From Phanerodontia chrysosporium (lineage: Eukaryota > Basidiomycota > Agaricomycetes > Polyporales > Phanerochaetaceae), in NCBI GenBank assembly GCA_001910725.1, contig MJGA01000010.1, positions 558,001 through 622,000 on the forward strand: a stretch of DNA of 64,000 nt. The letters run 5' to 3'. Of the stretch, positions 25,158-62,162 are shown piece after piece. Numbering within the stretch: position 1 is the first letter of the stretch; every line of letters begins with the position of its first letter. The notes beneath the pieces were generated by a model that was given only the letters and a program-made list of their open reading frames with translations, was not told the DNA's origin and made no database searches. A program made the translations under genes and the position numbers.

Positions 25158-25942
25158 AGTACGTCGTAGTCGAGCAGCCCGCTCACTCCGTACATGTTGC
25201 TAAGGCTTGCTTTTGCAGTGCCGAAAGACGTTCGTCGAAGCGCGGCCTCTCCGCCCCCGAACGCACCTCTCCTCAAGGACCACATCCCCAGCGCATTTTC
25301 GACCGCCTCCAACGTCGTCGCGAGGCCGGTAATCCCGTCGAGTGAACTGACCGCAAAGTCAAAGCGGTCATCAAGTACGTGTCCACGCTCCCCCAGCCTC
25401 CGCCCTCTGTCCCCTCCATCAACTGGACCGCCGTCCGCGAAGCTCGTGAGGCTGAACAGCGCGTAGGCAACCGCATCCGCGAGCAGCGCCAACGCGAGGC
25501 GCAAGAAGCCCAGGCCGCCGTAGCCGCCTCCTCCTCGAAGCTCAGTTTGGCAGAGCGCCTCAGCGCCGCCCCGACGTACGAGCCCATCGCCCGCAAGCCC
25601 ATCGGCATCGACATCCCCAAGTACTCCCCCACCGACCTCGTCGGCATCTTCACGCCTAAGCTCGACGCAACCATCAAGCGTCTCAAGGCCGTCGAGGAAG
25701 TCGACCTGTTCCACCTCGTCAACAGCGACCACGCACGCGGCGTCTGTCAGCTGATCGAGCGCCTCCAACAGATCCGCGCCGAGCTCGTCCGCCTCGCCCC
25801 CACCACCACGTTTAAGGAGTGGCACCAGTACGAGCTCGGACTCGCTCAGATCGGTGACATTTCGTTTATCGGTTTAAGGTGCAACTTCCGCCGTATTGTG
25901 GGAGAACTAGATATTGTGTACCGGGCCGGTTATTTTGATTAA
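25158..25942 (+). pseudogene. E2 ORF0, broken copy of the AUG-less leader ORF
   Basis: Predicted intron 25159-25218 (GTACGT...TTTTGCAG) would join A(25158) to TG(25219) and make the start codon as in E1 and E3. Downstream the frame is disrupted by an extra segment of about 39 bases after the fifth codon, a lost C in the CATCCCCCAG run, and a TGA where E1 has TGG. From about 25379 the frame is intact and matches E1/E3 to the stop at 25942. The only ATG in the leader, 25194, is inside the predicted intron. Confidence 0.7.
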
Positions 25943-26359
25943 TACATACACTTTCTGTCGCTCTGGATACCGGCTGCTCGAATCGACCGCATTTCTTTGC
26001 GCGGAATCTCGAGAACCGTACAGTTCGCGACGGTCACCTCATCGATCGAGGAGAAGACTGGGAGTTCGCTATCTGTGACGAACAGCCCTGTCCACATCGA
26101 GAAAGTACTCCGCCAGCCCCGCAACTCCCGCCGAGCACTCGAGAAATCCAAATCGAGCGCCCTCGTTTCGCGCAACGGCTAGAATTCGCCCGCGCCTCCG
26201 CCACTACCCCAAATACCCCGACCGCAGCCCTCCGGACAGCAGCCACCACTCGTCTCCCGAGACATCACTCGGCTCTGTTCTCTCCGATCACGAACCAGTC
26301 CCTTCGCCCCTCGATCTCTCTCGCGCTCACTCAGGAGCCAATACTCCCCGTCCCCCAAT

Positions 26360-33831: not shown

Positions 33832-35468
33832 CCGAGCTGCTTTTGTATCAGAGCCAGCTGATCACGGAGGGCGGCGATAGCGGCGCTCTGGTCGTCAGAC
33901 GAGCTGCCAGAAGACGAGGAGGCTGGAGACGAAGAGTCCTGCGACGAGGTATCCGAAGACGAGGCGCGGACGGCGGCGGTAGCGGGGGCGGTTCTCGGCT
34001 TGCCCTCGAGGCGAGCGCGACAGACGCGGGACCAGTGACCCTTCTTGCCACAGTGGTTGCAGACCGAGTCACGGTGAACGGGGTCCGTGGACTTATGGGA
34101 CTTCGAGCCGCAGACCTTGCAGCGATCCTTCATGACAGCGTCGAACTGGCGCTTGAGATCCGTGCCGGTGAGACCCTTGAACAGCTCGTCGATGTTCGCG
34201 GCGTCAATGTCCATCGCGTTGGAATCACGGAAGGCGCGCGTCGACGAGCTAGCCAGAGTTGAGGACGCCTTGCCCTGCTGTGCCAAGAGATCTTGCGAGA
34301 GCTTGTCCTTCGACCGATCGACAGCGAAACCAGCGTTCTTGAGCTCGTCGTACGTCTCGGGGCCTTTGCCGGTGCTGGGGTTGACCATGTATGAGATCCG
34401 CTCGAGGTAATCCTTGTTAAACTTCGTCCGCAACCGGGCTGCCAGATCTTCGGAGGTGAGCTTCGTGCGACCGGCGAGGGATTGGAACTCCGCAAAGAAC
34501 TCCGCGAACCGACGATTGCCTTGCGTGCACGCCTGTAGCTTGCTGAGGGCCTCGGCCTTCTCGTCGACGGGCTCGAACCGGTTCTTGAAAGCCTCCCAGA
34601 ATTGGGCGCGAGAACCTCTGAACAACTGAGTGCCGTCTGCCGCTTGCTCGATGTACTGCCGTGCCCATTCAGCGGCTTCGTCCTGCATGAAGGAGAGGGC
34701 GCCAACGATCCATTTCTGGCCGTCTACCAAGATCTTGCCGGTGTTTGCGTCTCGCTCGAGGTTGCCGTTGACGTCGCGCTTGCCGAACTTCTCCGGTTGC
34801 CCGTCGGCGTAGATGCGATAGGCGGCGCGGAAGAGACGGGCCGTGTCAGAACCTTTCCCCTTAAATGGGACGGGCTTCTCGACGAAGGGCAGCTCCTTGT
34901 TGGTGTTGACCGTAGCGTTGACCGTTGTCCGATTAGTACCGATAGCCTGTGCCAGAGTGTTGACCGTGTTGGTGAGCTGCGTCATAGCCTGGGCCATCTG
35001 CAGGAGGGCGGCAGAAACGGGGTCAGGAGGCGCCGGACCGGGCGGCGCTCCACCGGGAGTGCTTGACATATTGGGGGGACGGGGAGTATTGGCTCCTGAA
35101 TGAGCGCGCGAGAGATCGAGGGGCGAAGGGACTGGTTCGTGATCGGAGAGGACAGAGCCGAGCGATGTCTCAGGAGACGAGTGGTGGCTGCTGTCCGGGG
35201 GACTTCGATCGGGAGTATTTGGGGTAGTGGCGGAAGCGCGGGCGAATTCTAGCCGTTGCGCGAGACGAGGGCGCTCGATTTGGATTTCTCGAGTGCTCGG
35301 CGGGAGTTGTGGGGCTGGCGGAGTACTCTCTCGATGTGGGCAGGGCTGTTCGTCACAGATAACGAACTCCCAGTTTTCTCCTCGATCGATGAGGTGACCG
35401 TCGCGGACTGTATGATTCTCGAGATTCCGCGCAAAGAAATGCGGTTGATTCGAGCAGCCGGTATCCAG
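33819..35468 (-). CDS. gag: E1 Gag, with an AUG-less N-terminal extension from a CUG
   Basis: The AUG-started Gag is 35069-33819, 416 residues, with capsid helices and the zinc knuckle CNHCGKKGHWSRVC. Its frame is open for another 133 codons upstream to a CTG at 35468-35466 in strong context (G at -3, G at +4). The encoded extension is conserved with E3: a Cys-containing start (LD-x-GCSN), a QPCP(H/Y)RE motif, then a Pro/Ser-rich stretch (SSHHSSPETSLGSVLSDHEP). It contains no methionine. A CUG-initiated longer Gag, as in gammaretroviral glyco-Gag, is inferred. Confidence 0.85.
   Translation of the reverse strand: MDTGCSNQPHFFARNLENHTVRDGHLIDRGENWEFVICDEQPCPHRESTPPAPQLPPSTREIQIERPRLAQRLEFARASATTPNTPDRSPPDSSHHSSPETSLGSVLSDHEPVPSPLDLSRAHSGANTPRPPNMSSTPGGAPPGPAPPDPVSAALLQMAQAMTQLTNTVNTLAQAIGTNRTTVNATVNTNKELPFVEKPVPFKGKGSDTARLFRAAYRIYADGQPEKFGKRDVNGNLERDANTGKILVDGQKWIVGALSFMQDEAAEWARQYIEQAADGTQLFRGSRAQFWEAFKNRFEPVDEKAEALSKLQACTQGNRRFAEFFAEFQSLAGRTKLTSEDLAARLRTKFNKDYLERISYMVNPSTGKGPETYDELKNAGFAVDRSKDKLSQDLLAQQGKASSTLASSSTRAFRDSNAMDIDAANIDELFKGLTGTDLKRQFDAVMKDRCKVCGSKSHKSTDPVHRDSVCNHCGKKGHWSRVCRARLEGKPRTAPATAAVRASSSDTSSQDSSSPASSSSGSSSDDQSAAIAALRDQLALIQKQLGGFA
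33825..33831 (-). promoter_or_regulatory. -1 ribosomal frameshift site, GGGTTTT (E1)
   Basis: In Gag frame the codons are GGG GGT TTT GCT TAA, giving the X XXY YYZ heptamer G GGT TTT. A GC-rich stem (GGGGCCG pairing with CGGTCCCC) starts six bases downstream. Pol is open in the -1 frame across the site. The same site occurs at 27598-27604 (E2) and 42575-42581 (E3). Confidence 0.8.
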
Positions 35469-35493
35469 AGCGACACGAGATATATTTTATAAG

Positions 35494-36244
35494 CTACTCG
35501 AAATATCCAGCCCGGTACACGATGTCCAATTCTCCCACGATGCGGCGGAAGTTGCGCCTTAAACCGATGAACGAAATGTCACCAATTTGAGCTAGTCCAA
35601 GCTCGTACTGATGCCACTCCTTAAACGTGGTGGTGGAAGCAAGGCGGCTGAGCTCGTCGCGGATCCGTCGAAGGCGTTCGAGCAGCTGGCAGACGCTGCG
35701 CGCACGGTCGCTGCTGACGAGGTGAAAGAGGTCGACTTCCTCGACGGCCTTGAGACGCTTGATGGTTGCGTCGAGCTTAGGCGTGAAGATGCCGACGAGG
35801 TCGGTGGGGGAGTACTTCGGGATGTCGATGCCGACGGACTTGCGGGTGATGGGCTCGTACGTCGGGGCGGCGCTGAGGCGCTCTGCCAAACTGAGCTTCG
35901 AGGAGGAGGCGGCTACGGCGGCCTGGGCTTCTTGCGCCTCGCGCTGGCGCTGCTCGCGGATGCGGTTGCCTACGCGTTGTTCGGCCTCACGAGCTTCGCG
36001 GACGGCGGTCCAGTTGATGGAGGGGACAGAGGGCGGAGGCTGGGGGAGCGTGGACACGTACTTGACGACCGCTTTGACTTTGCGGTCCGTCCACTTGACA
36101 GGGTTACCGGCCTCGCGACGACGTTGGAGGCGGTCGAAGATGCGCTGAGGGATGTGGTCCTTGAGCCGAACGTCTTTCGGCACTGTAAAACCAGGACCTT
36201 AGCAACGTGCACGGAGTGAGCAGGCTGCTCGACTACGACGTACT
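35494..36244 (-). CDS. E1 ORF0, leader protein whose AUG is created by splicing
   Basis: The open frame of 229 codons ends at 35494 and contains no ATG in any frame. Predicted intron 36243-36183 (GTACGT...GGTTTTACAG, 61 nt) joins A(36244) to TG(36182-36181), making ATGCCGAAAGAC with G at -3. The predicted protein begins MPKDVRLKDHIPQRIFDRL. It has a basic N-terminus, a Pro-rich spacer (LPQPPPSVPS), a charged helix (REAREAEQRVGNRIREQRQR) and a C-terminal helical domain rich in Leu and Arg. I recognise no family. E3 carries the same 229-residue protein and E2 a broken one, so it is under selection. A chaperone-like or RNA-binding accessory role is only a guess. Confidence 0.8.
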
Positions 36245-36324
36245 CGCTTTAAACGGAGGGAATAAACTTTTTTAAACGGGGTTTGGGGGGAGCGGTAGGG
36301 AAGAATGCCTAGGGCACCCAAAAG

Positions 36325-36334
36325 ATCTCGACCT
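36325..36334 (-). promoter_or_regulatory. Self-priming primer-binding site of E1
   Basis: Two bases after the 5' LTR the element strand reads AGGTCGAGAT. This is the exact complement of ATCTCGACCT at the inferred start of the RNA (36526-36517). It matches the Tf1-type self-priming arrangement, in which the RNA 5' end folds back as primer. Confidence 0.8.
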
Positions 36335-36336
36335 AA

Positions 36337-37028
36337 TGTCGCGGAGCGAAGGCTCAACGCTGCACGAGGGAGCACAGATGGGGAGGTCGACGAGATGGCG
36401 CAGCGGAGCGGGTCACGCGGCGACGAACGGTTTGTGCAACTGTCCGTATTGACCAAGGTGTATTAGTGAGCTATTCTACTTTACAAACGAGGGCTTACCT
36501 GTCCGTATTGACCAAGAGGTCGAGATGACGGACAGGAGCGAGAGGTGCTACCTATATATACTACCAGAGTTCAGGGCAGGCTGTATGGTTACATAAGCTG
36601 ATGGGCAGTGCTCAGCACAGCTGGCGAGGCTGCGACGCGGGCTGCGCGGCGAGGCTGTACCGGGGCTGTGTCATGAGGCTGCGTCAGCTGGCAGTGTTCC
36701 GAGGCTGCGTCGGGCCGAGGCTGTGTCAACAGGATGACAGCTCGGGGTGTCTCGGCGAGGGGAGTCATCAGGGATGACAGTGCCTCCTCGGCGATCTGGG
36801 GGACCGGTTGCAAGGCAGACCGGTGATCCAGGCAGTGTCTGAGCGCGCAGCGGGATACGCTGGCGTCTAAGGGTGATGCGCCATCAGGGCGCTGGCGCTG
36901 AGTGGCCAGGCGCTGAGTGTGGGCGGCTAGGGCTCCAGACGGCGCGAGGGCTGCTCGCCCGTTGGATTAATCGAGGAAAATAGCCAAAAATCGGCGAAAA
37001 ATAGGGCTGCGCCGTCACATCCGTGACA
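36337..37028 (-). repeat. 5' LTR of E1
   Basis: Element sense TGTCACGG...GCGACA, 692 bases. It has a TATATA box, the RNA start, and two TTGGTCAATACGGACAG repeats flanking the mini-intron 36498-36440 (GTAAGCC...CTCACTAATAC...GACAG). Confidence 0.92.
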
Positions 37029-39098: not shown

Positions 39099-39372
39099 TG
39101 TCACGGATGTGACAGCGCAGCCCTATTTTTCGCCGATTTTTGGCTATTTTCCTCGATTAATCCAGCAGGCGAGCAGCCCTCGCGCCGTCTGGAGTCCTAG
39201 CCGCCCACGCTCAGCGCCTGGCCATCCAGCGCCAGCGCCCTGATGGCGCATCACCCCTAGACGCCAGCGCATCCCGCTGCGCGCTCAGACACTGCCCGGA
39301 TCACCGGTCTGCCTTACAACCGGTCCCCCGGATCGCCGAGGAGGCACTGTCATCTCTGATGACTCCCCTCGC
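39099..39372 (+). repeat. 3' LTR of E2, left part
   Basis: Starts TGTCACGG right after the polypurine tract GGAGGGGGG and is cut after CTCGC by E3. It continues at 47076. Confidence 0.88.
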
Positions 39373-40066
39373 TGTCACGGATGTGACGGTGCAGCCCTAT
39401 TTTTCGCCGATTTTTGGCTATTTTCCTCGATTAATCCAACGGGCGAGCAGCCCTCGCGCCGTCTGGAGTCCTAGCCGCCCACGCTCAGCGCCTGGCCACT
39501 CAGCGCCAGCGCCCTGATGGCGCATCACCCCTAGACGCCAGCGCATCCCGCTGCGCGCTCAGACACTGCCCGGATCACCGGTCTGCCTTGCAACCGGTTC
39601 CCCGGATCGCCGAGGAGGCACTGTCATCCCTGATGACTCCCCTCGCCGAGACACGCCGAGCTGATCAGCCTGATGACACAGCCTCGGCCCGACGCAGCCT
39701 CGAGACACTGCCAGCTGACACAGCCTCGTGACATAGCCCCCGCACAGCCTCGCCGCGCAGCCCGCGTCGCAGCCTCGCTGGCTATGCCAAGCACTGCCCA
39801 TCAGCTTAGGTAATCGTACAGCCTGCCCTAGAGTACTGTAGTATATAAGGGTAGCTCCCCTCGCTCCTGTCCGTCATCTCGACCTCTTGGTCAATACGGA
39901 CAGGTAAGCCTCAGTTTGTATAGTAGCATAGCATACTAATGTATCTTGGTCAATACGGACAGCTGAACAAGTGTGTTCGTCGCTGCGTGACTCGCTCCGC
40001 CGCGCCTCGACGTCGACCTCCCCATCTGTCCTCCCTTGTGAAGCGTTGAGCCTTCGCTCCGCGACA
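39373..40066 (+). repeat. 5' LTR of E3
   Basis: 694 bases, TGTCACGG...GCGACA. TATATAAG at 39842-39849 precedes the inferred RNA start ATCTCGACCT (39876-39885). Confidence 0.92.
39904..39962 (+). promoter_or_regulatory. Predicted mini-intron in the E3 LTR leader
   Basis: Donor GTAAGCC, a consensus branch point TACTAAT (39934-39940) and an acceptor GGACAG, 59 nt. The exon before it and the intron end carry the same 17-mer TTGGTCAATACGGACAG. It contains an ATG (39939-39941), the only one between the RNA start and the Gag ATG in this copy, which fits removal before translation. E1 and E2 have the same intron. Confidence 0.65.
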
Positions 40067-40068
40067 TT

Positions 40069-40078
40069 AGGTCGAGAT
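40069..40078 (+). promoter_or_regulatory. Self-priming primer-binding site of E3
   Basis: AGGTCGAGAT two bases after the LTR, complementary over ten bases to the RNA start at 39876-39885. Confidence 0.8.
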
Positions 40079-40160
40079 CTTTTGGGTGCCCTAGGCATTT
40101 TTCTCCCTACCGCTCCCCCCAAACCCCGTTTAAAAAAGTTTATTCCCTCCGTTTAAAGCG

Positions 40161-40911
40161 AGTACGTCGTAGTCGAGCAGCCTGCTCACTCCGTGCACGT
40201 TGCTGAGGTCCTTGCTTTGCAGTGCCGAAAGACGTCCGGCTCAAGGACCACATCCCCCAGCGCATCTTCGACCGCCTCCAACGTCGTCGCGAGGCCGGTA
40301 ACCCTGTCAAGTGGACGGACCGCAAAGTCAAGGCGGTCATCAAGCACGTCTCCACGCTCCCGACACCTCCGCCCTCTGTCCCCTCCATCAACTGGACTGC
40401 CGTCCGCGAGGCTCGCGAAGCCGAACAGCGCGTAGGCAACCGCATCCGCGAGCAGCGCCAACGCGAGGCGCAAGAAGCCCAGGCCGCCGCAGCCGCCTCC
40501 TCCTCCAAGCTCAGTTTGGCAGAGCGCCTCAGCGCCGCCCCGACGTACGAGCCCATCGCCCGCAAGCCCGTCGGCATCGACATTCCCAAGTACTCCCCCA
40601 CCGACCTCGTCGGCATCTTCACGCCCAAGCTCGACGCGACCATCAAGCGTCTCAAGGCCGTCGAAGAAGTCGACCTGTTCCACCTCGTCAGCAGCGACCG
40701 CGCACAAGGCGTCCGCCAGCTGCTCGAACGCCTTCGACAGATCCGCGCTGAGCTCAGTCGTCTCGCCCCCACCACCACGTTTAAGGAGTGGCACCAATAC
40801 GAGCTCGGACTCGCTCAAATCGGTGACATTCCGTTTGTCGGTTTAAGGCGTAATTTCCGCCGCATCGTGGGAGAGCTAGATATCGTGTACCGGGCCGGCT
40901 ACTTTGATTAA
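40161..40911 (+). CDS. E3 ORF0, leader protein with a splice-created AUG
   Basis: Exon 1 ends ...TTTAAAGCGA at 40161. Intron 40162-40222 is GTACGTCGTAG...TTTGCAG (61 nt). Exon 2 starts TGCCGAAAG at 40223. Joining gives GCGATGCCGAAAG and a 229-residue protein ending at 40911. Without splicing no ATG exists in any frame from 39963 to 41336. The protein is nearly the same as in E1, including the KWTDRKVKAV basic stretch and the C-terminal FKEWHQYELGLAQIGD region. Most differences between copies are silent or conservative by eye, which argues that the protein is made. Confidence 0.8.
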
Positions 40912-40931
40912 TAAATACACTCTTTGTCGCA

Positions 40932-42587
40932 CTGGATTTCGACTGTTCGAATTGTCCGCACTTCTTCGGGCGAACCACAGAGAACGGCGTCACCCTTCCC
41001 GCTGATCTCCACGTCGAGGAAAACAACGGGTCTCGAGAAGCCAGGGAGTGCAGTCAGCAGCCCTGCCCTTATCGAGAGACTGCCCCTCCACTACTCCCGG
41101 TTCCGTCTAGCGACCGAGAAACACAGTTCGAACGCCCTCATTTCGCGCAACGGCTAGAATTCGCCCGCGCCTCTGCCACCACTCCGAATACTCCCGATCA
41201 CAGTCCCCCGGACAGTAGCCACCACTCGTCTCCCGAGACATCGCTCGGCTCCGTCCTCTCCGACCACGAACCCGCTCCCTCGCCGTTTAACCTCTCCCGC
41301 GCTCAATCAGGAGCCAACACTCCCCGTCCCCCCAACATGTCGAGCACTCCCGGTGGAGCGCCGCCCGGTCCGGCGCTTCCCGACCCCGTTTCTGCTGCAC
41401 TCCTGCAAATGGCCCAGGCAATGACGCAGCTCACCAACACGGTCAACACTCTGGCCCAGGCTATCGGTAACAATCACACAACGGTCAACGCTACGGTTAA
41501 CGCGAACAAGGAGCTGCCCTTCGTCGAGAAGCCCGTCCCGTTCAAAGGGAAAGGTTCGGACACGGCCCGTCTCTTCCGCGCCGCCTATCGCATCTACGCC
41601 GACGGGCAGCCGGAGAAATTCGGCAAGCGCGACGTCAACGGTAACCTCCAGCGAGACCCCGACTCCGGCAAGATCCTGGTAGATGGTCAGAAGTGGATCG
41701 TCGGCGCCCTCTCCTTCATGCAAGATGAAGCGGCTGAATGGGCGCGGCAATACATCGAGCAGGCGGCAGACGGTGTTCAGATATTCGACGGCTCTCGCGC
41801 CACGTTTTGGGAAGCGTTCAAGAACCGGTTCGAGCCCGTCGACGAGAAGGCCGAGGCCCTCAGCAAGCTGCAGGCGTGCACACAAGGCAATCGTCGGTTC
41901 GCGGAGTTCTTTGCGGAGTTCCAAGCCCTCGCCGGTCGCACGAAGCTCACCCCGGAAGACCTGGCGGCCCGGCTACGGACGAAGTTCAACAAGGACTACC
42001 TCGAACGGATCTCGTACATGGTCAACCCCAGCACCGGCAAAGGCCCCGAGACGTACGACGAGCTCAAGAACGCGGGATTCGCCGTCGACCGGTCGAAGGA
42101 CAAGCTCTCGCAAGACCTCTTGGCGCAGCAAGGCAAGACGTCCTCGACTCCGGCTAGCTCGTCGACGCGCGCCTTCCGCGATCCGAACGCGATGGACATC
42201 GACGCCGCGAACATCGACGAGCTGTTTAAGGGGCTCACCGGCACGGATCTCAAGCGCCAGTTCGACGCCGTCATGAAGGATCGCTGCAAGGTCTGCGGCT
42301 CGAAGTCCCACAAGTCCACGGACCCCGTTCACCGCGACTCGGTTTGCAACCACTGCGGCAAGAAGGGTCACTGGTCCCGCGTCTGTCGCGCTCGCCTCGA
42401 GGGCAAGCCGAGAACCGCCCCCGCTACCGCCGCTGTCCGCGCCTCGTCTTCGGATACCTCGTCACAGGACTCCTCGTCTCCGGCCTCCTCGTCTTCTGGC
42501 AGCTCGTCTGACGACCAAGCTGCCGCGATCGCCGCCCTCCGTGATCAGCTGGCTCTGATACAAAAGCAGCTCGGGGGTTTTGCTTAA
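40932..42587 (+). CDS. gag: E3 Gag with CUG-started extension
   Basis: Gag from the ATG at 41337 has 416 residues, the same capsid helices and zinc knuckle as E1. The frame is open 135 codons upstream to CTG at 40932-40934 (context GTCGCACTGG, G at -3 and +4). The extension shares LD-x-x-CSN-x-PHFF, QPCPYRE and SSHHSSPETSLGSVLSDHEP with E1. ORF0 stops 21 bases before the CTG. The extension frame relative to ORF0 differs between E3 and E1, so read-through from ORF0 is unlikely and independent initiation is the simpler idea. Confidence 0.85.
   Translation: MDFDCSNCPHFFGRTTENGVTLPADLHVEENNGSREARECSQQPCPYRETAPPLLPVPSSDRETQFERPHFAQRLEFARASATTPNTPDHSPPDSSHHSSPETSLGSVLSDHEPAPSPFNLSRAQSGANTPRPPNMSSTPGGAPPGPALPDPVSAALLQMAQAMTQLTNTVNTLAQAIGNNHTTVNATVNANKELPFVEKPVPFKGKGSDTARLFRAAYRIYADGQPEKFGKRDVNGNLQRDPDSGKILVDGQKWIVGALSFMQDEAAEWARQYIEQAADGVQIFDGSRATFWEAFKNRFEPVDEKAEALSKLQACTQGNRRFAEFFAEFQALAGRTKLTPEDLAARLRTKFNKDYLERISYMVNPSTGKGPETYDELKNAGFAVDRSKDKLSQDLLAQQGKTSSTPASSSTRAFRDPNAMDIDAANIDELFKGLTGTDLKRQFDAVMKDRCKVCGSKSHKSTDPVHRDSVCNHCGKKGHWSRVCRARLEGKPRTAPATAAVRASSSDTSSQDSSSPASSSSGSSSDDQAAAIAALRDQLALIQKQLGGFA
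42575..42581 (+). promoter_or_regulatory. -1 ribosomal frameshift site, GGGTTTT (E3)
   Basis: Codons GGG GGT TTT GCT TAA; the TAA at 42585 ends Gag. A stem begins after a six-base spacer, as in E1. Confidence 0.8.
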
Positions 42588-45500
42588 GGGGCCGGAGTGA
42601 CGCCGCATCGTCGGTCCCCGTTTCGTCAAGCCCGGATTCAACTCCGGCACCGTCGTTAGAACCACAGGACCTTTCAGATACCATCCGCTCGTGTACAATA
42701 TCAGTGTTAGATCCTTTTTCCAATCACTATCGTGTACCTGTAAAGCTCACCGGACTCAATAAAACTATTCGCACGCCTGCAATGATTGACTCCGGTGCGA
42801 CTTCGCTATTCATCCACGAGGATTTCTGTAAACAACACAAGATCCTCACGGTACCACTCAAGAAGGAGATCACACTGTACAACATCGACGGAACAAAGAA
42901 TGAAGCAGGGTCTATCACGCATCGCGCCAGACTCCAGCTTACCGTTGGTTCTTACACGTTTAAGGAGGAGTTTCTTGTCACGAACATCGGTCCGGAGGAC
43001 GTCATCCTCGGACTTCCGTGGCTCAAGAAATGGAATCCGAACATTGACTGGGAAACGGGAGATGTCCAGTTTCAGCTCCGCGGCGGAGCTGAGGACACCC
43101 CGGTTTTCGGTATCCATCAGATTGACGCCAACCGCTCCGAACGCCGCGAATGGCTTCGAGCAGGCATTGTTGAGGACGCCAAGGACGAAGTCTGGATCCT
43201 CGCCGGCTACACTTACTCGCAAGCGATCGCTGTCGAAGCCAATCGCGAGAAGTACGCCAAGACGTTTGAAGAGCTGGTTCCCAAGGAGTACCACCGACAC
43301 AAGAAAGTGTTCTCTGAAGAGGAATCGCACCGCCTTCCGAAGCATCAGCCCTGGGATCACGCGATAGATCTCGTCCCGGACGCCCCGGCCTCGATCAAAT
43401 CGAAGGTTTATCCCATGTCCCCGATCGAGAATGAAGAACTACAGCGGTTCATCGACGACGCACTTGCCAAAGGCTATATCGTCCCCAGCAAGTCTCCGAT
43501 CGCTTCCCCTGTCTTCTTCATCAAGAAAAAGGATGGCAAGCTCCGGTTCATCCAGGATTACCGCAAGCTCAACGACATCACCGTGAAGAATCGTTACCCC
43601 CTTCCGCTCGCCTCCGACATCATCGGGAAGCTCCAGGGCGCTAAGATCTTTACCAAGTTCGATGTCCGTTGGGGCTACAACAACGTCCGGATTAAGGAAG
43701 GTGACGAGTGGAAAGCCGCCTTCGTCACCAACCGCGGCCTCTTCGAGCCCAGAGTCATGTACTTCGGTCTGTGCAACAGCCCCGCCACGTTCCAGGCCCT
43801 CATGAACCACATCTTCGCCGACCTCATCGCCGAGAGCAAGGTCGCAGTTTACCTCGACGACATTCTCATCTGGTCGAACGACCTCGCTTCGCATCGGAAG
43901 ATTGTTCACGAGGTCCTGGCACGTCTCGCCAAGTACGATCTATACCTTCGGCCCGAGAAGTGCGAGTTCGAGCGCTCAGAGATCGAGTACCTTGGACTCC
44001 TGATCAGCGAAGGACAAGTCGGCATGGATCCCGGCAAGGTTAAGGCTGTAGCCGAGTGGCCGACCCCGAAGAACCTCAAAGATGTACGAGGCTTTGTCGG
44101 GTTTGCCAACTTCTACCGCCGTTTCATCAAAGACTTCTCAAAGATCTGCCGTCCGTTGCACGATCTGACGAAGAAGGACACTCCGTTTAATTGGGGTCCC
44201 GCACAGGCAGAAGCCTTCGAGACGCTCAAGCGCGCTTTCACGACTCAGCCCGTGCTCGCCATGTGGAGCATTGATCGGCCAACTCGCGTCGAGACCGATG
44301 CTTCTGGCTACGCCACCGGAGGAGTCATAGCCCAACGCAACCCTGAAGATGGTCTCTGGCATCCAATCGCGTATCGCTCGCAGACCATGAGCCCCGCCGA
44401 GCGGAACTACGAGATCTGGGACCGCGAGATGCTTGCAATCATCGAAGCTCTCAAGGACTGGCGCCAATTCCTCGAAGGTCTCCCGGAGCCTTTCGAGATC
44501 TGGACCGATCATCAGAATCTCCAGTACTGGAAGACTGCGCAGAATCTCACGCGGCGACAAGCCCGGTGGGCTTCCTACCTCGCCGAGTACGACTTCCGCA
44601 TCATCCACCGCCCCGGCAAGACGCATCTCCTCGCCGACCCGCTCTCCCGGCCCTCCTCGCTGCATGTTTCCGACGAGGAAGACAATCGCTCGCAGATAGT
44701 ATTGAAGCCGGAACTGTTTAAGATAGCCGCCACGGTAGCTTTCGCAAACCCCTCCCCCTCGAGAAGCGCATTCGCGACTGCTCCGAAAAAGAAAAGGAAG
44801 TCGCAGACGCTCTGCAGACTCTCCGGACTAAGGGGCCCCGCAAGCTGCGCAACGGCGTTCTCGAATGGGAAGAAGACAACGGCCTTCTGTACTACCATGG
44901 GAAAGTCTACGTGCCGAACAGTGCCGCGCTGCGCAACGACGTCATCAAGTCTTGTCACGACGCGCCGACTGCCGGACACCCTGGGAAGCACACCACCCTC
45001 GAGTTAGTCTCTCGGCACTATTGGTGGCCGCGCATCTCCGCCGACGTTAGCCGCTACGTGCTCGGCTGCGATCAATGCCAACGGTACAAGTCCGCTCCGC
45101 ATCCGAAAGCCACCCTACAGCCCCACGATGTCCCTTCAGGGCCCTGGGAACACGTCGGCGTGGATCTCATCACACAGCTCCCACGCGATGCCAAGACCAA
45201 GAAGGACTCGATCGCGGTCTACGTGGACCACTACTCGGATCAGTGCCACCTTGTGCCGGTCGACTCGACGATCACCGCTGCCGGCATGGGCGACGTTCAC
45301 TACACGGACATCTTCCGCCTTCACGGCCTCCCACGCAAGATCTTCTCCGATCGTGGGCCCCAGTTTGCAGCTCAGTACATGCGAGCGCTGTATAAGCGCC
45401 TCGGCATCGCTACTGGTCTCACCACGGCATATCACCCCGAGGGCAACGGCAAGGTCGAGCGCAAGAACCAGGAAGTCGAGAAATTCCTGCGTCTCTTCGT

Positions 45501-46338
45501 CTCCCAGCGCCAAGACGACTGGGTCGATTGGCTCCCGATGGCCGAGTTCACCCTGAACTCACACGTGTCTAGTGCTACCGAGCGCACCCCCTTCGAGATA
45601 GTTTACGGCTACACACCGGACTTCACGATCCCGGCCGGCAAACACACCAACGTTCCTGCCCTCGACGAGCGCCTAGACCGCATGGCTCACGTCCGCAAAG
45701 AGGCCGAAGCTGCCCTGCGCCTAACCAAAGCCCGCATGAAAGAAGAGTACGAGGCCGCGAAGAAACGCGCCCACTCCTTCAAGGTCGGCGATCAGGTTTG
45801 GCTCAGCACGAAGGACCTCAGCATCGATCAGCCCTCGCCCAAGCTCGGCCCCCGCCAGTTGGGTCCGTTTAAGGTTCTGGAAAAGATCGGCGATCTGGAC
45901 TATCGGCTCGAGCTCCCGAGCTGGCTGAAAATCCACCCAGTTTTCCATGTCAACCGCCTCAGCCCGTGGCACGATCAGGGCGTTGAGAAGCCCCTGCCTC
46001 CCAAACCTGTCAAGGTTGCCGGCGAAGAAGAATACGTCGTCGAGAAAGTCCTCGACAGCCGCATATACCGCCGACAACTGCAGTACAAGGTCCGCTGGAA
46101 AGGCTACGGTCAAGCCGGCGACACGTGGGAAAAGGCAGACAACCTCAAACACGCCAAAGCTCTGGTCAACAAATTCCACCGCGAAAATCCGGAAGCGCCC
46201 CGCAAGCTCGCTGCCACCGCCTTCGAAGCCCTCGCCGCCTCTTTTCGCCCGTTCGTCACCGAAGTCGACGTCTCTCTCCTTTCTGCCGCTGATCGCGCTA
46301 AGGCCGATCTCGAATGGGAAGAGGGGCGCCACCTCTAA
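42582..46338 (+). pseudogene. pol: E3 Pol with a one-base frameshift after RNase H
   Basis: Protease (DSGATSLF), RT (YFGLCN, YLDDILIW) and RNase H are intact up to about 44750. There E3 reads CCTCCCCCTCGAG where E1 has CCTCCCCTCTCGAG, one base shorter, and the frame is lost; the old frame runs on to a stop at 45007. The correct frame resumes and is open from before 44911 to 46338 with H2C2 finger, integrase and chromodomain. As the LTRs look identical, the lesion is very young, or a sequencing error, or the copy moved with help in trans. Confidence 0.88.
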
Positions 46339-46376
46339 CGACCTCGCGAGGACGCTCGGTTTTAGGAGGGGGGTAA

Positions 46377-47070
46377 TGTCACGGATGTGACGGTGCAGCC
46401 CTATTTTTCGCCGATTTTTGGCTATTTTCCTCGATTAATCCAACGGGCGAGCAGCCCTCGCGCCGTCTGGAGTCCTAGCCGCCCACGCTCAGCGCCTGGC
46501 CACTCAGCGCCAGCGCCCTGATGGCGCATCACCCCTAGACGCCAGCGCATCCCGCTGCGCGCTCAGACACTGCCCGGATCACCGGTCTGCCTTGCAACCG
46601 GTTCCCCGGATCGCCGAGGAGGCACTGTCATCCCTGATGACTCCCCTCGCCGAGACACGCCGAGCTGATCAGCCTGATGACACAGCCTCGGCCCGACGCA
46701 GCCTCGAGACACTGCCAGCTGACACAGCCTCGTGACATAGCCCCCGCACAGCCTCGCCGCGCAGCCCGCGTCGCAGCCTCGCTGGCTATGCCAAGCACTG
46801 CCCATCAGCTTAGGTAATCGTACAGCCTGCCCTAGAGTACTGTAGTATATAAGGGTAGCTCCCCTCGCTCCTGTCCGTCATCTCGACCTCTTGGTCAATA
46901 CGGACAGGTAAGCCTCAGTTTGTATAGTAGCATAGCATACTAATGTATCTTGGTCAATACGGACAGCTGAACAAGTGTGTTCGTCGCTGCGTGACTCGCT
47001 CCGCCGCGCCTCGACGTCGACCTCCCCATCTGTCCTCCCTTGTGAAGCGTTGAGCCTTCGCTCCGCGACA
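46377..47070 (+). repeat. 3' LTR of E3
   Basis: 694 bases, no difference found from 39373-40066 in the stretches compared. It is preceded by the polypurine tract AGGAGGGGGG and followed by TSD CTCGC. Confidence 0.92.
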
Positions 47071-47075
47071 CTCGC

Positions 47076-47498
47076 CGGGACACGCCAAGCTGATCAGCCT
47101 GATGACACAGCCTCGGCCCGACGCAGCCTCGAGACACTGCCAGCTGACACAGCCTCGTGACATAGCCCCAACACAGCCTCGCCGCGCAGTTCGCGTCGCA
47201 GCCTCGATGGCTATGCAGAGCACTGCCCACCAGCTTATGTAATCGTATAGCCTGCCCTAAAGGACCTGTAGTATATAAGGGTAGCTCCCCTCGCTCCTGT
47301 CCGTCATCTCGACCTCTTGGTCAATACGGACAGGTAAGCCCGTGGTTTGTATCGTAGTTACAATACTAATATCATCTTGGTCAATACGGACAGCTGCGTA
47401 AGTTTGTTCGTCGCCGCGTGACCCGCTCCGCAGCGCCTCGTCGTCGACCTCCCCATTCGCCCTCCCTCGTGCTGCGTTGAAGCCCTTGCTCCGCGACA
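47076..47498 (+). repeat. 3' LTR of E2, right part
   Basis: Continues the LTR interrupted at 39372 (CGGGACACGCC...). It has its own TATA box, 17-mer repeats and mini-intron, and ends GCGACA at 47498. It differs at many sites from the E2 5' LTR. Confidence 0.85.
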
Positions 47499-52230: not shown

Positions 52231-55089
52231 ATGCCTATGCATCGCCGAGGGCCTGCGCACACGCCAAGCATGTGCCAACTCACTGCACTCAGGGTAGTCC
52301 GCAAGGGGCCCTTTAGACGGGTCAGCAATCCCTGCGCGCGGTCCAAGTCCTGGTGGACGGCGGAGTGCACGGTGCACCACGAAGCTTTCAGGGCCTGCCA
52401 GAGGCGTATGAGAGCGCTCAAGCGCGAGCGTGACGCGGTGTACCGCGCCGAGCGGGAAGGCGTCCCCTTGGACGATGGGGCCGCTGTCGTGCAGCGGACC
52501 ACCGCAGGCATCCTCGCTCTGCAGGCCGAGTGCGAGCTCATCCAGGGCCGCAAGCGCGGCGCGATGCGCCGCGCCAAACGCGCCTTCTTCGACGGCCAGA
52601 TTGCGCGAATGGACTCGCGGCGGATCTGGGACGCGGTGCCCTGGACGCAGCCGCGGCGGCAGGCTGCCAACATGGCCCTCCGAGCTGCTGACGGGGAGCC
52701 GGTTGTTGACCCTGACGGCCTCGCTGCGCTCCTTCAGGAGCAGTTCACGCCGTCCGAGGCGCACGGTGTGGACTCCACCTTCCTTGATGACATGGGGACC
52801 CGCGCACCCCTGGGCCGTGCCGGGTTCAGTGGCACGCAGGTTGCGGAGGCGCTCCGGGCGTCCAGCAACTCCTCTGCCCCCGGCCCCGACGGCGTCGGAT
52901 GGTTTTGGCTGAAACGCATCATCCGCGATGACAACGCCCGATTCAACGATGACGGCACCCTGGCATGCGCAGCTGTCCCTCTCCTCTCGCGCGTCGCTGC
53001 GTTGTTCGAGGCTTGTATACGGTGGCGCACCTTCCCCGCTCTCTTTAAGAGCTCCCACACCGTCGTCATCCCCAAACCTGGCAAGCCTGACTACTCTGTC
53101 CCCAAGGCCTACCGGCCCATTGTGCTGCTCAACTGCATTGGAAAGTTGATGGAGAAAGTGCTCGCTCGCCAGATGCAGGCCCTGGCGCAGGCCGCTGGCG
53201 TCATGCACCCGGCTCAATTTGGTGGCACGATGCAGCACAGCACGACGGACGCCGGCGTGAGCCTCGTCCACCTTGTCACGGAAGCTTGGAACCAGGGGAT
53301 GGAAAGCGCGGCGGTCCTCGTCGACGTCGCGCAGTTCTACCCGTCCATTAACCACACCATGATGTGCGGCATCCTGCGGCGGCAGGGCTTTAGCTCTTTC
53401 CTGGTGGACTTCTTCGAAGACTACCTTCGCGGCCGCGATACCACGTTTCTCTTCAACGGCGTGCGCACCTCCCCGGCCGCATTGCGAACCGGGGTGGGGC
53501 AGGGATCTGCACTGTCCCCCGTGCTGGCCAACCTCTACCTGGCCCCGGTTATCCGCGTCGTCGAGAAGGAGCTCAACGACCAGTTCCCCGGAGTCACGCT
53601 CCAGTTCTACGTCGATGACGGCCTCATTCATGTCTTCTCCCGAAAGAGTGAGGTGCCCGCCCACCGCACCGTGGCAGAAGTGAATGCTGAGAAGCTCGAG
53701 TACGCCGTGGCGGCCCTCACCCGCACACTTGCTCGGGTGGGCCTATCCATTGAGGCTTCCAAGACGGAACTCATCTACTTCCGGCGGGGCCGCAAGGCGT
53801 GGAGGACTCGCCCCGGTGATAACCCCCTTGGGCCACCGGTCACAGTTCACACCCCTGGATGCGAAGCCGTTGTCTGGCCGAAGTCACTCGTCCGATATCT
53901 GGGATTTTTCCTTGACTCGAAGCTCACATTCCGCGTGCACATCAAGCATTACTGCGTTAAGGCGTGCAGCACCGTGACGAGCTTGCGTATGCTCGGCAAC
54001 TCTGTGCGAGGCATGACTCCGCAGGACAAGCGGCGGCTCTACATCGCGAACGTCTTGCCTGTCATGTGTTATGGAGCCCAGCTGTGGTGGGACCCCAAGT
54101 GGTCCCGCAAGAAGTATGCAGCGTCCGAGATGCAAAAAGCCCAGTCGCGCGCGGCACGCTGGATATGCGGAGCCTTCCGCACCACGCCGATCGGCGCGCT
54201 GGACATGTTCGCGGGGTTACTGCCCATCCGCGAGCAGGTCAACAAGCTTATGCACCGTGCGTGCCTACGCGTGCATACCCTGCACCTCGGCCACCCTCTC
54301 CGCGCGTACCTCCCTGAGATCTGGACGCCGAATGTCCACAACCTGGACCCGCAGATATACCTGCGTAACCGGCACCGCACGCGGTTCGACCGCGGCCTCA
54401 TGCAGGGGCCAGTCGACCTCCAGCCGCACCGCCCGCCCCCAAGGGCACACCACCGTCCGTCCCCGCTGACGTGGATACATCACACGCTCCCGACCTGCGA
54501 CGAGCGGTTCAACGCCATCAGTGCCATAGCGCTGCCGGGCTCCCGCCCATTTGACCGCTTTGGGGACAATGGACAGCTCACCCTGCACTTCATCCGTCCC
54601 GAAGACCGCGCGGCCATCCCGTCCAAGAGTACGTCGGATCCTGCATTTGTGGCATGGTTTAATGACGTCTATGCCCCAGCGGCCACTGCGGCCATGCAGG
54701 ACCCTTTGTCCCTCACGCTGGTCACCGACGGATTGGCACGCGACGCCCCCCGCACTGCAGCGGCGGCCCCCGGTGCACCCGTTACTACTCCGCGCGCGAC
54801 GGGCGCCGCGTGGGCCGTGTGGCGGCCGCCGGCCCCCTCCACTCCTCTCGTCGAAGGAAGTCGCGCGTGCGGGCGGGTCACTGTCTTCGACGCCGAAATG
54901 ATTGCGTTAAACCGCGGCACGAGCGCCCTCTTCAAGGAGTGGCTTGCCTGGGACAGCAGCCCCGAGGCCGCAACACAGCGCGCGCGGGACGACTTCTCGT
55001 TCACGTGGAACCTATTCGTTGACAACCTCGGCGCCGCGTCCTCCATCTTCGCATGCCGCAATGGGCCGTCTGCGATGCAGTCCGTTTTG
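52231..55089 (+). CDS. LINE ORF, part 1: reverse transcriptase and start of RNase H
   Basis: The first ATG of the frame is 52231 (the frame opens at 52156 with no earlier ATG). It starts in the linker that normally follows the endonuclease (RSKSWWTAEC), so no endonuclease domain precedes the RT. RT motifs follow in order: VVIPKPGKPDY, YRPIVLLNCIGKLMEK, AQFGG, VDVAQFYPSINH, GVGQGSALSPVLANLYL, the catalytic YVDDG, and EASKTELIYF. RNase H begins with VTDG and DAEMIAL and reaches FVDN before EB cuts it at 55089. Part 1 gives 953 codons. Confidence 0.9.
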
Positions 55090-55689
55090 TATCACAAAAA
55101 TGCGCTGCCCTAGCGCCTATACACCAAACCAACCAGCAATACTCACTGGCAAAGGTTTACTTGGACTACAAAGGGTGTAGCCAGGCTTGAAGACGAGGTA
55201 TAGAGGCTAGAGAGGTGAGATGCGATGAGATTGAAGCTGGGGAGGCACCCCCAGCCCTCAGGGTTTATATACATGTGCACCAGGTCCCCAGGGACCGGTG
55301 TTCAGGGTCCTAGCTATCTAATACCTACTACGCTATTGGCTAGTGCCCTACAGGCATTCCTACATTCTCCTACACGTTCCTAAATGTTCCTACGATGTCC
55401 CAGAAACCTCCAGAACGTTCCAGCACTGTCCGGACCTGTCCAGAGACCCCCAGGACTTTTTAGTCCATTCCGGAGTGTCTCGGCGCTTCCAGACCCTTGC
55501 CTGCTTCTAGACCTTCGACCATGTGACCCTGGGATACCGCACGTGTGCGCATCACGTGACCGCCGTATCACGTGACCGGCCCCGAGCCTAGGGCTGTCAC
55601 TCCAGCGCTTCTGCATGTCACAGTTCGGAGTAATCGCTTCTGTCACCTGCTGCCCCTAACCCTAAGGGTTGAGACGAAAAACTGTGACA
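55090..55689 (-). repeat. 3' LTR of EB
   Basis: Element sense TGTCACAG...TGTGATA, 600 bases, preceded by the polypurine run TTGGGGG (about 55693-55699). Confidence 0.92.
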
Positions 55690-55724
55690 TTACCCCCAAT
55701 TCTAGCTGAACCTCCTGGTGAAGC

Positions 55725-57641
55725 CTAAATACCAGTGGAGCCAAAACCATCGCTGCTGCGAATGGTTGAGTCGAGGCGAGAAACCGGAGTTGGTTCGGCG
55801 TAGGAGATTCTTTCGAGCACGAGTTGAGCGACACGATCACCCTTGTGGAATGTAAAGGTGTCGGGCGAGTTGTTGATGAGTAGAATTTTGAGCTCTCCTC
55901 GATAATCTCGGTCAATAACGCCTGCTCCTATGTCGATGCCTCCGAGGCTAAGGCCACTCCGTGGTGCGACTCGAGCGTAGGTACCTGGTGGGGTACACAT
56001 TCGAAGGCCAGTTGGCGCTAGCTTGCGATCATGGGGCTTGAGCGTAAGGTCTTCCGTGATGAAAAGATCCAACCCTGCGCTTTCTGGCGAGCCACGTGAG
56101 GGAAGTTTTGCATCCTTGTTCATGAGCTCGACCTCGAACTGGTCGTCTGCTCCCCAAGATTGGAGTAGCGCGAGTTCGCGCACGAAAAACTCATCCTCCT
56201 CGTCGTGGTGGCGTTGCAGAAGGGAAATTGCCTTTGGCGCATCTGGGTATTTCTTGTGGAATTGTTTGACCTTCGCCATAGCGTGCTTGAGATTGGGCAA
56301 GTATTCCCATGTGTCGCTATGCTCATCGTAGCCTCTCCACCGTACTCGGTACATAACACGGCCTTTAGAGTCTGGCTGTGCATCTACGATCTGCTCGACC
56401 TCGTACTCCTCGTCATCACCCACACGAATGGGTGGTAGGGGTTTGCGCGTGCGATTGGCAACCTCATCCTCGACGTGCTTCGTGAGCTTGCTTGCGTGGG
56501 AGACCGGGTGAATCTTCACATGGGCTGGTAACTTCAGCTTGAAGGTGACCGGTCCCAGCTGCTCTACGATCTCGTAAGGGCCTACTCGCTTTGGTGCCAG
56601 TTTCTTGGAGGGAACCCGAAGGTTCAGATCCTTTGCGTCAAGCCAAACACGGTCTCCGACCTTGAACAAGGGTTCTGATTTACCCTGGTCGTAGTACCAC
56701 TTCATTCGCTCTGCAGCCAGCACGAGCGCGGCTTTCGCCTGATCTTGGGCCTCCTGTCTAAGCTTCGTCCAGTCGTCCAGTTCTGACAACCTTGTAACAC
56801 GGTCCTGCTCTGGGAACATGCGTGGATGACGGCCATATTCGACGAAGAATGGCGAGTTCTTGGTGCTTTCATGCGCCTGGTTATTGTACGCAAACTCGGC
56901 AGAGGGCAAAAGGTACGCCCAGTCGTCCTGCCTGAAGCTTGTGTAGCAGCGCAGATACTGCTCCAATGACTGATTAACTCGCTCCGTCTGACCGTCCGCC
57001 TGAGGGTGAAACGCTGTAGTCATTGCTGACTTGATTCCCAAGAGTCTGCACCATTCCTGGAAGAGTTTTGCGGCGAACTGCGTTCCTCTATCCGAAATGA
57101 TCTGTCTGGGTAGGCCGTGCAAAGGCCAAATACGCTCATAGAGCAAATTTCCCAGATCCTTGGCTGAAAACTCCTTGGTGATGGGGAGGAAATGTGCTCG
57201 CTTGGTTAAGCGGCAAACGACTACGAAGATAGCGTTGTAACCGTCCGACTCAGGCAAGTCCGTGATCATATCGCATGAGATTATCTCCCAGGGTTCCGAC
57301 GGAATCTCGTTCGGTTGTAGCAGGCCAGCAGGCTTCTGGTTGACGTTTTTATGTGACTGGCAGACTTCGCAACCTGCGACGTACTTCTTGACGTAAACTG
57401 ACATTCCTGGCCACCAGTAGTTGCGCGACAGCAACTCCAACGTCTTCCATCGTCCAGGGTGTCCAGCCCCAGGGAAGTCGTGGTGTAACTTGAGTAGATC
57501 CGCCCTAATCTTGTCGTCCTTGGGCACATACACCTTGCCTCGGTGCAGTAGTAGCCCGTCCTCGAGGTGCCATTCCGCTAAGTCCTTCCCGAACTCTCTT
57601 GATCCTTTCTCGTGGTCCATAACACTTGATGACTCTGTCAT
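55725..57641 (-). CDS. EB integrase with chromodomain and C-terminal dUTPase
   Basis: 638 residues from an ATG at 57641. Order: H2C2 finger (FPGAGHPGRW...CEVCQSH), integrase core (ISCDMITDLP, IISDRGTQFAAK, DGQTERVNQSLEQY), a GPY-type module (KRVGPYEIVEQLG), a chromodomain (EEYEVEQIVDAQ, YRVRWRGYD, DTWEYLPNL), a charged linker, then a complete trimeric-type dUTPase: SPESAGLDL, APRSGLSLGG, GVIDRDYRGEL, GDRVAQLVLERI and SSDGFGSTG (motifs 1-5). dUTPase hydrolyses dUTP, lowering uracil incorporation during cDNA synthesis. All motif residues look intact. The fusion at the far C-terminus, after a chromodomain, differs from the retroviral positions of dUTPase. Confidence 0.93.
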   Translation of the reverse strand: MTESSSVMDHEKGSREFGKDLAEWHLEDGLLLHRGKVYVPKDDKIRADLLKLHHDFPGAGHPGRWKTLELLSRNYWWPGMSVYVKKYVAGCEVCQSHKNVNQKPAGLLQPNEIPSEPWEIISCDMITDLPESDGYNAIFVVVCRLTKRAHFLPITKEFSAKDLGNLLYERIWPLHGLPRQIISDRGTQFAAKLFQEWCRLLGIKSAMTTAFHPQADGQTERVNQSLEQYLRCYTSFRQDDWAYLLPSAEFAYNNQAHESTKNSPFFVEYGRHPRMFPEQDRVTRLSELDDWTKLRQEAQDQAKAALVLAAERMKWYYDQGKSEPLFKVGDRVWLDAKDLNLRVPSKKLAPKRVGPYEIVEQLGPVTFKLKLPAHVKIHPVSHASKLTKHVEDEVANRTRKPLPPIRVGDDEEYEVEQIVDAQPDSKGRVMYRVRWRGYDEHSDTWEYLPNLKHAMAKVKQFHKKYPDAPKAISLLQRHHDEEDEFFVRELALLQSWGADDQFEVELMNKDAKLPSRGSPESAGLDLFITEDLTLKPHDRKLAPTGLRMCTPPGTYARVAPRSGLSLGGIDIGAGVIDRDYRGELKILLINNSPDTFTFHKGDRVAQLVLERISYAEPTPVSRLDSTIRSSDGFGSTGI

Positions 57642-58415
57642 CCAACTGGGCTTGTATTGATCCTCTTGCTAGCCTCTTGCTAGTGTCCCTTATCACTGAA
57701 TGGCCAGATTGCCTTGGGCTCGTATCGTGGAAGATTCTGGCTTCTCAATGTGGTTTCCACGATTATGGCAATCTACCCCCAATTCAGGATATGGCCTCCT
57801 GGACATAGGATCAGCCCCTTCTCAGGCTAGTGCGTTCAGCTCCAATGTGTGTAGGCTGACTCCAAGAGTCTATGCATAGCCAATATAGGTAAAAAGCCCT
57901 TTTGACCCAACTGCTGCAGTCGCTCTCAACACCCTGAAGTATCTGGGATTATGCCCTGAATGCTAACTTCAACTAGGTGTTGCAAACATCTTCAGGCTGA
58001 GAGACACTGCCCTGTCACTTGCTCGGCAAGCAACCGAAAACTTCTGCTTCAGTACTTCGAAGCTAAGTTGTGGAGCCCTCCCCAAAGGTACCAGTACCTC
58101 GGTGCCTAGGGACCTGCACTATCTGACTAACTCGTCCAATAAATGGCACAACACTGGGCCTTCTGAGTAGTAATACTCGCCCTACTTTGGTTCTCAACAG
58201 TTGAGAGGTTCCAAAGTTCTGTCAGATAGCCGAAACTGAGGGGCACAACACTGGAATCCTTGATTCCTCCCTTCTGGCAGTTCAACTGCCGAAAACTGTG
58301 GCCAATCTGGGGTGGTGTAAGCGACAGTTAGAGTCTAAGCTCTGCTCTTTCCTCCTCGAAGTCCTAGTTCATCAGTTCTTCGGGTTCTGCTTATGCTGCC
58401 CATGCTCATTCCAGT
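57642..58415 (-). other. EB internal stretch replacing RT and RNase H
   Basis: About 770 bases between protease and integrase with no frame above about 60 codons and no RT motif. It contains small repeats (GGCACAACACTGG twice, near 58146 and 58232). A chromoviral RT-RNase H needs about 1.5 kb, so the segment was deleted or replaced. Confidence 0.7.
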
Positions 58416-58770
58416 CTATTTTTTGACTAGACCTCTTTGAGCAGCTAAGGCCGAGGAAATGTCCTTTCCACCCAGATCTGTAATGAGGTATGCTTGTCTG
58501 GAGACATGGTCCCCTACGGCTACGTCGAGCCAAGCATACTCCTCAATACTGCCACACTTGTTCCTGGAGCCATCTGCGTTGTAAACGCGTATCTCCCTGG
58601 CCAGCTGGTTCGTCTTTAGCTTATGCTTCTTGACGAAGCGATGGCTAATGAACACAGCATAGGCCCCTGAATCAACCAGCGCGGTAGTCTGCACTCTGAT
58701 TTCCTTACTCTGACTCAGTGTTACTGGAATGATAAAGCTCAAATGAAGGCCTTCCTCAATTCCAAAACAT
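58416..58770 (-). pseudogene. EB aspartic protease, frameshifted at its end
   Basis: The frame 58742-58416 has the active site ALVDSGAYAVFISHRF and continues to LITDLGGKDI, after which the usual ILGLSWL is found only in another frame (LGLSCSKRSSQKIDWNEH). One base is therefore missing near 58458, and the reading ends. It has no ATG. Confidence 0.75.
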
Positions 58771-58826
58771 GTTCAATTGAGTCAAGTGGGTAAAGGAAAT
58801 CGAAAACGGACCAGAGGTCATAACCT

Positions 58827-60407: not shown

Positions 60408-60436
60408 CTTGATTCAAAAACGCGCAGATACAAAAA

Positions 60437-61545: not shown

Positions 61546-61556
61546 AGCTTCAATCT
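61546..61556 (-). promoter_or_regulatory. Self-priming primer-binding site of EB
   Basis: Two bases inside the 5' LTR the element strand reads AGATTGAAGCT, the exact complement of AGCTTCAATCT at 61707-61697, which lies about 30 bases downstream of a TATATAAA box. This marks both the RNA start and a Tf1-like self-priming mechanism. Confidence 0.82.
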
Positions 61557-61558
61557 TC

Positions 61559-62157: not shown

Positions 62158-62162
62158 TTTTG

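Follow-up and report, generated by a model that had tools for sequence, protein, structure and literature searches.

The same RNA of a retroelement has to serve both translation and reverse transcription, and several proteins must be expressed from it. In the accessory genes of retroviruses, splicing moves a start codon that is already present or fuses open reading frames (ORFs). Tf1-like elements prime their own reverse transcription by a mechanism in which the 5' end of the RNA base-pairs with the sequence adjoining the long terminal repeat (LTR). For BARE, separate RNA pools for translation and for replication have been reported (PMC3735527). In rice tungro bacilliform virus, two ORFs extend over about 895 nt that contain no other AUG, such that ribosomes leak to the third ORF (PMC3542737). 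In murine leukaemia virus, glyco-Gag is described as an in-frame extension that starts from a well-placed CUG 5' of the Gag AUG (PMC3542737, PMC5778647). For fungal chromoviruses, a published section records a further ORF, whose function is not known, along with a dUTPase, and does not detail their starts; an ORF0 without AUG, a split AUG, an ATG-free leader and a CUG-initiated Gag are not described in that section (PMC2864245).

The element studied here, E3, occupies positions 39373-47070, LTR to LTR, on the forward strand of the window, by which we mean the whole stretch of 64,000 nt of Phanerodontia chrysosporium DNA that was analysed (contig MJGA01000010.1, positions 558,001 to 622,000). 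Its 5' LTR (39373-40066; TGTCACGG...CGCGACA) and its 3' LTR (46377-47070) are each 694 nt long and identical. Partial LTR copies flank the element at both ends (39099-39372 and 47071-47495). Gag, read from its first AUG (41337-42587), has a Retrotrans_gag domain and a zinc knuckle that scores below Pfam's cut-off. Pol encodes protease, reverse transcriptase (RT) and RNase H at 42545-45007 and integrase, SH3_Tf2-1 and a chromodomain at 44722-46338, and on the basis of these domains E3 is a Ty3/Gypsy chromovirus: it has LTRs, and RT, RNase H and integrase are followed by the chromodomain. The order from protease to chromodomain is that of the fungal Ty3/Gypsy chromoviruses. A TATA box (TATATAAG, 39842-39849), read from the sequence, lies upstream of ATCTCGACCT (39876-39885), where we infer that the RNA starts. 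This presumed RNA 5' end and self-primer is complementary to the primer binding site AGGTCGAGAT at 40069-40078, 2 nt past the LTR. In this respect E3 resembles the Tf1-like Metaviridae, and its sequence fits self-priming of the Tf1 type, given the presumed 5' end. Positions 39868-39903 contain CTGTCCGT ... ACGGACAG, which could form a hairpin round the presumed self-primer; the second half of this possible hairpin is repeated at the end of candidate intron 1, described below.

E3 differs from the fungal chromoviruses of that account in what precedes and begins gag: a conserved ORF0 without an AUG, a candidate split AUG, a leader of more than 1 kb that is free of ATG, and a probable CUG start of Gag. 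ORF0 sits between the 5' LTR and Gag. The A at 40161 is the last exon base 5' of a donor, GCGA/GTACGT (40161/40162; slashes mark exon boundaries), which opens candidate intron 2 (40162-40222, 61 nt). The candidate intron has a branch-like GCTRAG or GCTGAA and ends in the acceptor TTTGCAG/TGCCGAAAG (40222/40223), after which the second exon of ORF0 (TG CCG AAA GAC ... TAA) runs from 40223 to 40911. Joining of the exons yields GCGATGCCGAAAG (GCG ATG CCG AAA), an ATG with G at -3 from which the 229 residues of ORF0 (M plus 228) can be read; it is the sole in-frame ATG for ORF0 of E3. An earlier sequence-only reading of this DNA had proposed just such an ATG, in such a context and frame, together with an intron of 60-61 nt just 5' of ORF0 in E1, E2 and E3. 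Both observations hold in the sequence: besides that of E3, candidate intron 2 is found in E1 at 36183-36243 (minus strand, 61 nt) and in E2 at 25159-25218 (plus strand, 60 nt), the latter with one ATG inside. ORF0 of E2 is broken.

Conservation was assessed in 72 copies (71 distinct rows) aligned over their 5' 2 kb, namely the loci L009-L038 (n=30; L009 is E3) and L044-L083 (n=40) plus E1 and E2 of the window. The 70 loci are the best-scoring 70 of 152 match rows, some of which are fragments of one copy, and the set is biased to E3-like copies; excluded were L001-L008, which matched the same part of the query, and, as decayed relatives, the four loci L084-L087. The conservation check on donor and acceptor that had been suggested with the sequence-only reading gave a uniform result, in that GTACGT, CAG, the A 5' of the donor and the TG 3' of the acceptor are invariant in 72 of 72 copies. 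The branch-like site reads GCTAAG in 40 copies, GCTGAG in 26 and GCTGAA in six. Intron 2 measures 60 nt in 41 copies, 61 nt in 27 and 59 nt in four, and 59-61 nt is a usual size for introns in fungi. Its length relative to E3 is out of frame in 45 of 72 copies, compared with one of 72 for ORF0. Length, letters and frame changes thus fit an intron. Among the decayed relatives, a string search found both the donor and the acceptor letters in L085-L087, and in L084 it found the acceptor letters and not those of the donor. L085, L086 and L087 are short contigs whose ORF0 copies have decayed, with stops and split matches.

Conservation by itself is insufficient to carry the case for intron 2. The bare motif, A/GT about 60 nt 5' of an in-frame AG/TG, is not rare by chance, donor and acceptor both sit in well-conserved surroundings, and the donor is conserved just modestly above its neighbourhood, where 72% of the leader sites show no variation above 2%. 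AG is absent from the 3' tails of intron 2 (21 kinds), and the same is true, in every copy, of 51% of the 13-nt windows of the leader. What gives the case its weight is the depletion of ATG, the recurrence of the acceptor in a distantly related family, and the N-termini of homologues.

ORF0 is intact in 69 of the 72 copies, among which good copies are over-represented. Its diversity at codon positions 1, 2 and 3 is 0.033, 0.023 and 0.179, and its median dN/dS is 0.084 (2454 of 2556 pairs, those with dS above 0.15); as a wrong-reading control, the leader treated as coding gave 0.447. Judged by these substitution patterns, ORF0 is a gene under purifying selection. Database searches yielded thirteen relatives (P0001-P0011, P0014 and P0015), and identity to related proteins in other records is 28-82%. 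It could be argued that E3 is a decaying element in which ORF0 and the splice motif have no function, since the bare motif is short and transposons mutate freely. The low dN/dS, the intact reading frames (even allowing for the bias of the set), the relatives in other records and the depletion of ATG in two families make such a coincidence very improbable.

The N-terminus MPKD is found in P0001-P0009 and P0011, though the residues after it differ. P0015 begins with MPPH. In P0010, a Phanerochaete carnosa protein with a longer gene model, the motif is internal and reads LPKD, with L, neither V nor M, before PKD; P0010 is also the only relative with an internal Met, which is absent in the other 12 of 13. 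P0014, a JGI record that differs by about one residue from the protein of E4 (see below), has its first residue written as V. An M at position 1 of a database relative proves nothing about splicing, because gene callers accept GTG as a start. The predicted structure of the ORF0 protein (mean pLDDT 75) consists of helices throughout, its C-terminal part being modelled with confidence, and no fold match stood out in a structure comparison. Stretches rich in Arg and Lys in the N-terminal half might bind RNA or Gag, which is a guess from the sequence.

A genome search with the most distant relative, P0011, revealed a second family (family B), represented in the window by E4 on the minus strand (55087-62159). 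ORF0 of E4 (60437-61167, minus strand), which reads from TG CCT AAA GCT to TAG, contains neither a Met codon in frame nor any ATG; in a profile comparison it shares 24% identity over 147 columns with the other ORF0s (probability 92). Its junction is TACTAG/TGCCTAAAG, so that AG/TGCC[T]AAAG is common to E3-type elements and E4, and a CTGAC has its A 14 nt 5' of the intron end. The acceptor pattern of E4 is matched exactly in 82 of 106 matches. Two donors tie for the highest consensus score. One of them, GTGAGT after CCA (61615), lies in the LTR and delimits a candidate intron of 448 nt (61168-61615, minus strand; CCA/GTGAGT to TACTAG/TGCC) whose removal would give GCCATGCCT with an AUG; the other, GTAAGT after GGC (61438), would give a CTG instead. 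The choice of donor is ambiguous because the copies are too alike. The many near-identical copies of the E4 family suggest a recent burst. Near the presumed RNA start of E4, AGCTTCAATCT matches the element's own primer site; complementarity between RNA 5' end and primer site, as in Tf1-like elements, is therefore found with ATCTCGACCT in E3 and with AGCTTCAATCT in E4, the RNA 5' ends being presumed in both. Pol of E4 (55725-57668, minus strand) carries at its end an integrase, a chromodomain and a fused dUTPase domain; a dUTPase is already known in basidiomycete elements (PMC2864245).

Without splicing, the codon that spans the junction reads GTG in all 72 copies, with a purine at -3 (GCAGTGC in 66, ACAGTGC in six), and it coincides with the possible splice acceptor. 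ORF0 might therefore start at GUG 40222-40224 on unspliced RNA, with AUGs purged to allow leakage to Gag and with the GT...AG incidental or unused. The invariance and the context of the codon agree with this proposal, as does the precedent of rice tungro bacilliform virus, with its leakage over about 895 nt (PMC3542737), and the L before PKD in P0010 would suit a UUG or CUG start. In E4, however, C at both -3 and +4 gives the GUG a poor context, and in both families the G of GTG doubles as the last base of the possible acceptor. Initiation at GUG also leaves unexplained why GTACGT is present in 72 of 72 copies, why the spacing is held at 59-61 nt, and why there is a branch-like motif. We consider GUG initiation, the main competitor of a splice-made AUG, unlikely.

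According to the sequence-only reading, the ORF0 protein has no ATG anywhere unless the RNA is spliced. This holds for E3, in which ATG does not occur in any of the three frames from 39940 up to the Gag ATG, and for ORF0 in 67 of 72 copies; it does not hold for the other five, which have one. The leader (39963-40161) is free of ATG in 72 of 72 copies and positions 40912-41336 in 69 of 72, and intron 2 contains an ATG in three of 72, E2 among them. In E4, ATG is absent from the TATA box through to the Gag AUG. Against expectations calculated from base composition, the 72 copies have per copy 0 versus 1.9 ATG in the leader (39963-40161), 0.04 versus 0.7 in intron 2, 0.07 versus 6.3 in ORF0, and 0.04 versus 3.6 in the spacer (40912-41336). 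In U3 the numbers are 5.7 versus 4.0, in candidate intron 1 0.54 versus 1.1, and in Gag 3' of its AUG they are normal (7.5 versus 6.9; 71 copies). Triplets composed of the same letters are plentiful in ORF0 (AGT 8.2, GTA 8.2 per copy), as is the reverse complement CAT (13.1 per copy). Of the sites that are one step from ATG, one of 70 carries ATG in at least two copies, whereas the corresponding figure for control sites is 51 of 186 (p=3.4e-7); the same test in the body of Gag gave 10 of 35 versus 18 of 66 (p=1). Dinucleotide shuffles gave a weaker signal: out of 2000 shuffled sequences per element, one (E4) and two (E3) were free of ATG.

The window contains 1743 ATG-free runs on both strands. 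The four longest, of 1524 nt (E1, 35070-36593, minus strand), 1397 nt (E3), 1335 nt (E4, 60408-61742, minus strand) and 1165 nt (E2, 25195-26359, plus strand), each lie in the leader of an element and terminate at its Gag ATG, which in E4 is at 60407; the fifth is 508 nt long. The run of E2 starts within intron 2, past the single ATG. An upstream ORF without AUG in any frame, the arrangement typical of rice tungro bacilliform virus, is found in 67 of 72 copies and in E4. Selection against ATG in all frames, even inside a gene, would be expected if ribosomes scan through the region, and the depletion is the best evidence that an RNA with the leader and ORF0 region intact would make Gag.

Where Gag probably begins is indicated by a CTG at 40932-40934 (CGC[T/A/C]CTGGAT), invariant in 72 of 72 copies, with G at -3 and +4. 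The stretch from 40932 to 41336 behaves as an ATG-free N-terminal part of Gag. In the Gag frame, diversity at the third position is 0.22, versus 0.09 and 0.10 at the other two, dN/dS is 0.15 (2094 pairs), and the frame is open in 62 of 72 copies. Just 10 of 78 fourfold third positions are invariant. Out-of-frame length changes occur in 46 of 72 copies just 5' of the CTG, versus nine of 72 after it. The simplest reading of these data is a CUG start, so that Gag of the E3 type probably starts at CUG 40932 and not solely at AUG 41337; the freedom from ATG up to 41337 suggests leakage to this AUG as a second start. A conserved non-AUG codon in a strong context with coding sequence 3' of it recalls the glyco-Gag of murine leukaemia virus, to which the proposed CUG-started N-terminal extension would be comparable. 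Unlike the glyco-Gag signal peptide, the extension looks hydrophilic when its sequence is read directly, and it differs further in comprising 135 codons in E3 and in following an accessory ORF.

A second candidate intron, intron 1 (39904-39962), lies in the LTR (CAG/GTAAGC ... TACTAAT ... CAG), with an 18-nt direct repeat either side. The donor CAG/GTAAGC is present in 69 of 72 copies, reads GTAAGA in one and is absent in two, and the length is 57-62 nt. Apart from the first half of the spacer, which comes close (0.199 and 0.192 for the two), no region in the comparison varies as much as intron 1. An ATG occurs inside it in 36 of 72 copies, E3 included; in those copies synthesis of Gag by scanning would therefore require removal of intron 1 or leakage. 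Two of the 72 copies, L016 and L069, lack intron 1 exactly, and 11 places in the genome lack it when up to one mismatch is allowed. For L069, two of the 11 places (one of the two inspected) are about 6.9 kb apart, a spacing as of its two LTRs, which fits copying from an RNA spliced at intron 1; recombination across the 18-nt direct repeat would yield the identical product. For intron 2, none of the genome sites that match the joined junction with at most one mismatch belongs to a copy of ORF0, so no trace of a copied spliced RNA was found.

Candidate intron 1, with its fixed ends and variable interior, looks like an intron, which lends some plausibility to a model in which all mRNA has both introns spliced, the unspliced RNA serves as genome only, and the spliced RNA that yields ORF0 also yields Gag downstream, through reinitiation or leaky scanning. 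Reinitiation would also be aided by the ATG-free spacer. It is, however, rare after an ORF of 229 codons, and the model explains neither the lack of ATG within ORF0 itself nor the CUG in strong context. We regard this model as quite improbable.

We favour, and consider likely, a reading in which splicing creates the ORF0 AUG and ribosomes on unspliced RNA scan all the way to Gag. RNA that retains intron 2 would be AUG-free across the leader and ORF0 up to Gag, and ribosomes would scan more than 1 kb before beginning Gag. Elements of the E3 type would start it at CUG 40932, with leakage to AUG 41337 as well, and those of the E4 type at the AUG directly 3' of ORF0. Removal of intron 2 by the spliceosome would join A to TG and form an AUG in an acceptable context (G at -3), and the spliced RNA would direct synthesis of ORF0, presumably a helical accessory protein. 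Since the intron is kept in each of the 72 copies examined, the RNA that retains intron 2 would be the sole RNA copied. The fuller proposition of a two-state switch in self-primed fungal chromoviruses, with an AUG-free 5' kilobase, one splice that writes the ORF0 AUG and Gag made from a CUG, we see as evenly poised between right and wrong. The toggle between Gag and ORF0 put forward in the sequence-only reading gains strong indirect support from the ATG depletion in two distant families. It needs amendment on two points: Gag apparently starts at CUG 40932 too, or instead, and the LTR contains a second conserved candidate intron (39904-39962).

The proposed use of unspliced RNA as genome and of another RNA for a product is shared with the spliced accessory genes of retroviruses and with BARE and Copia; in E3, unlike these, splicing would create the AUG itself. 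With rice tungro bacilliform virus, a member of the Caulimoviridae, E3 has in common successive AUG-less sequence that would let ribosomes reach a later ORF, whereas ORF I of the virus starts at AUU on unspliced RNA and the AUG of E3 can be made by splicing. The sequence-only reading knew of no described LTR element with a split AUG; likewise, no LTR element with an AUG produced by splicing was found in the literature searched, coverage of which is incomplete and includes few subscription journals.

If the favoured reading is correct, the choice between the uses of an RNA may rest on whether an AUG exists at all. A gene finder that requires a single-exon ATG would overlook ORF0 or put its beginning in the wrong place, and relatives of these elements may for this reason be common and unnoticed.
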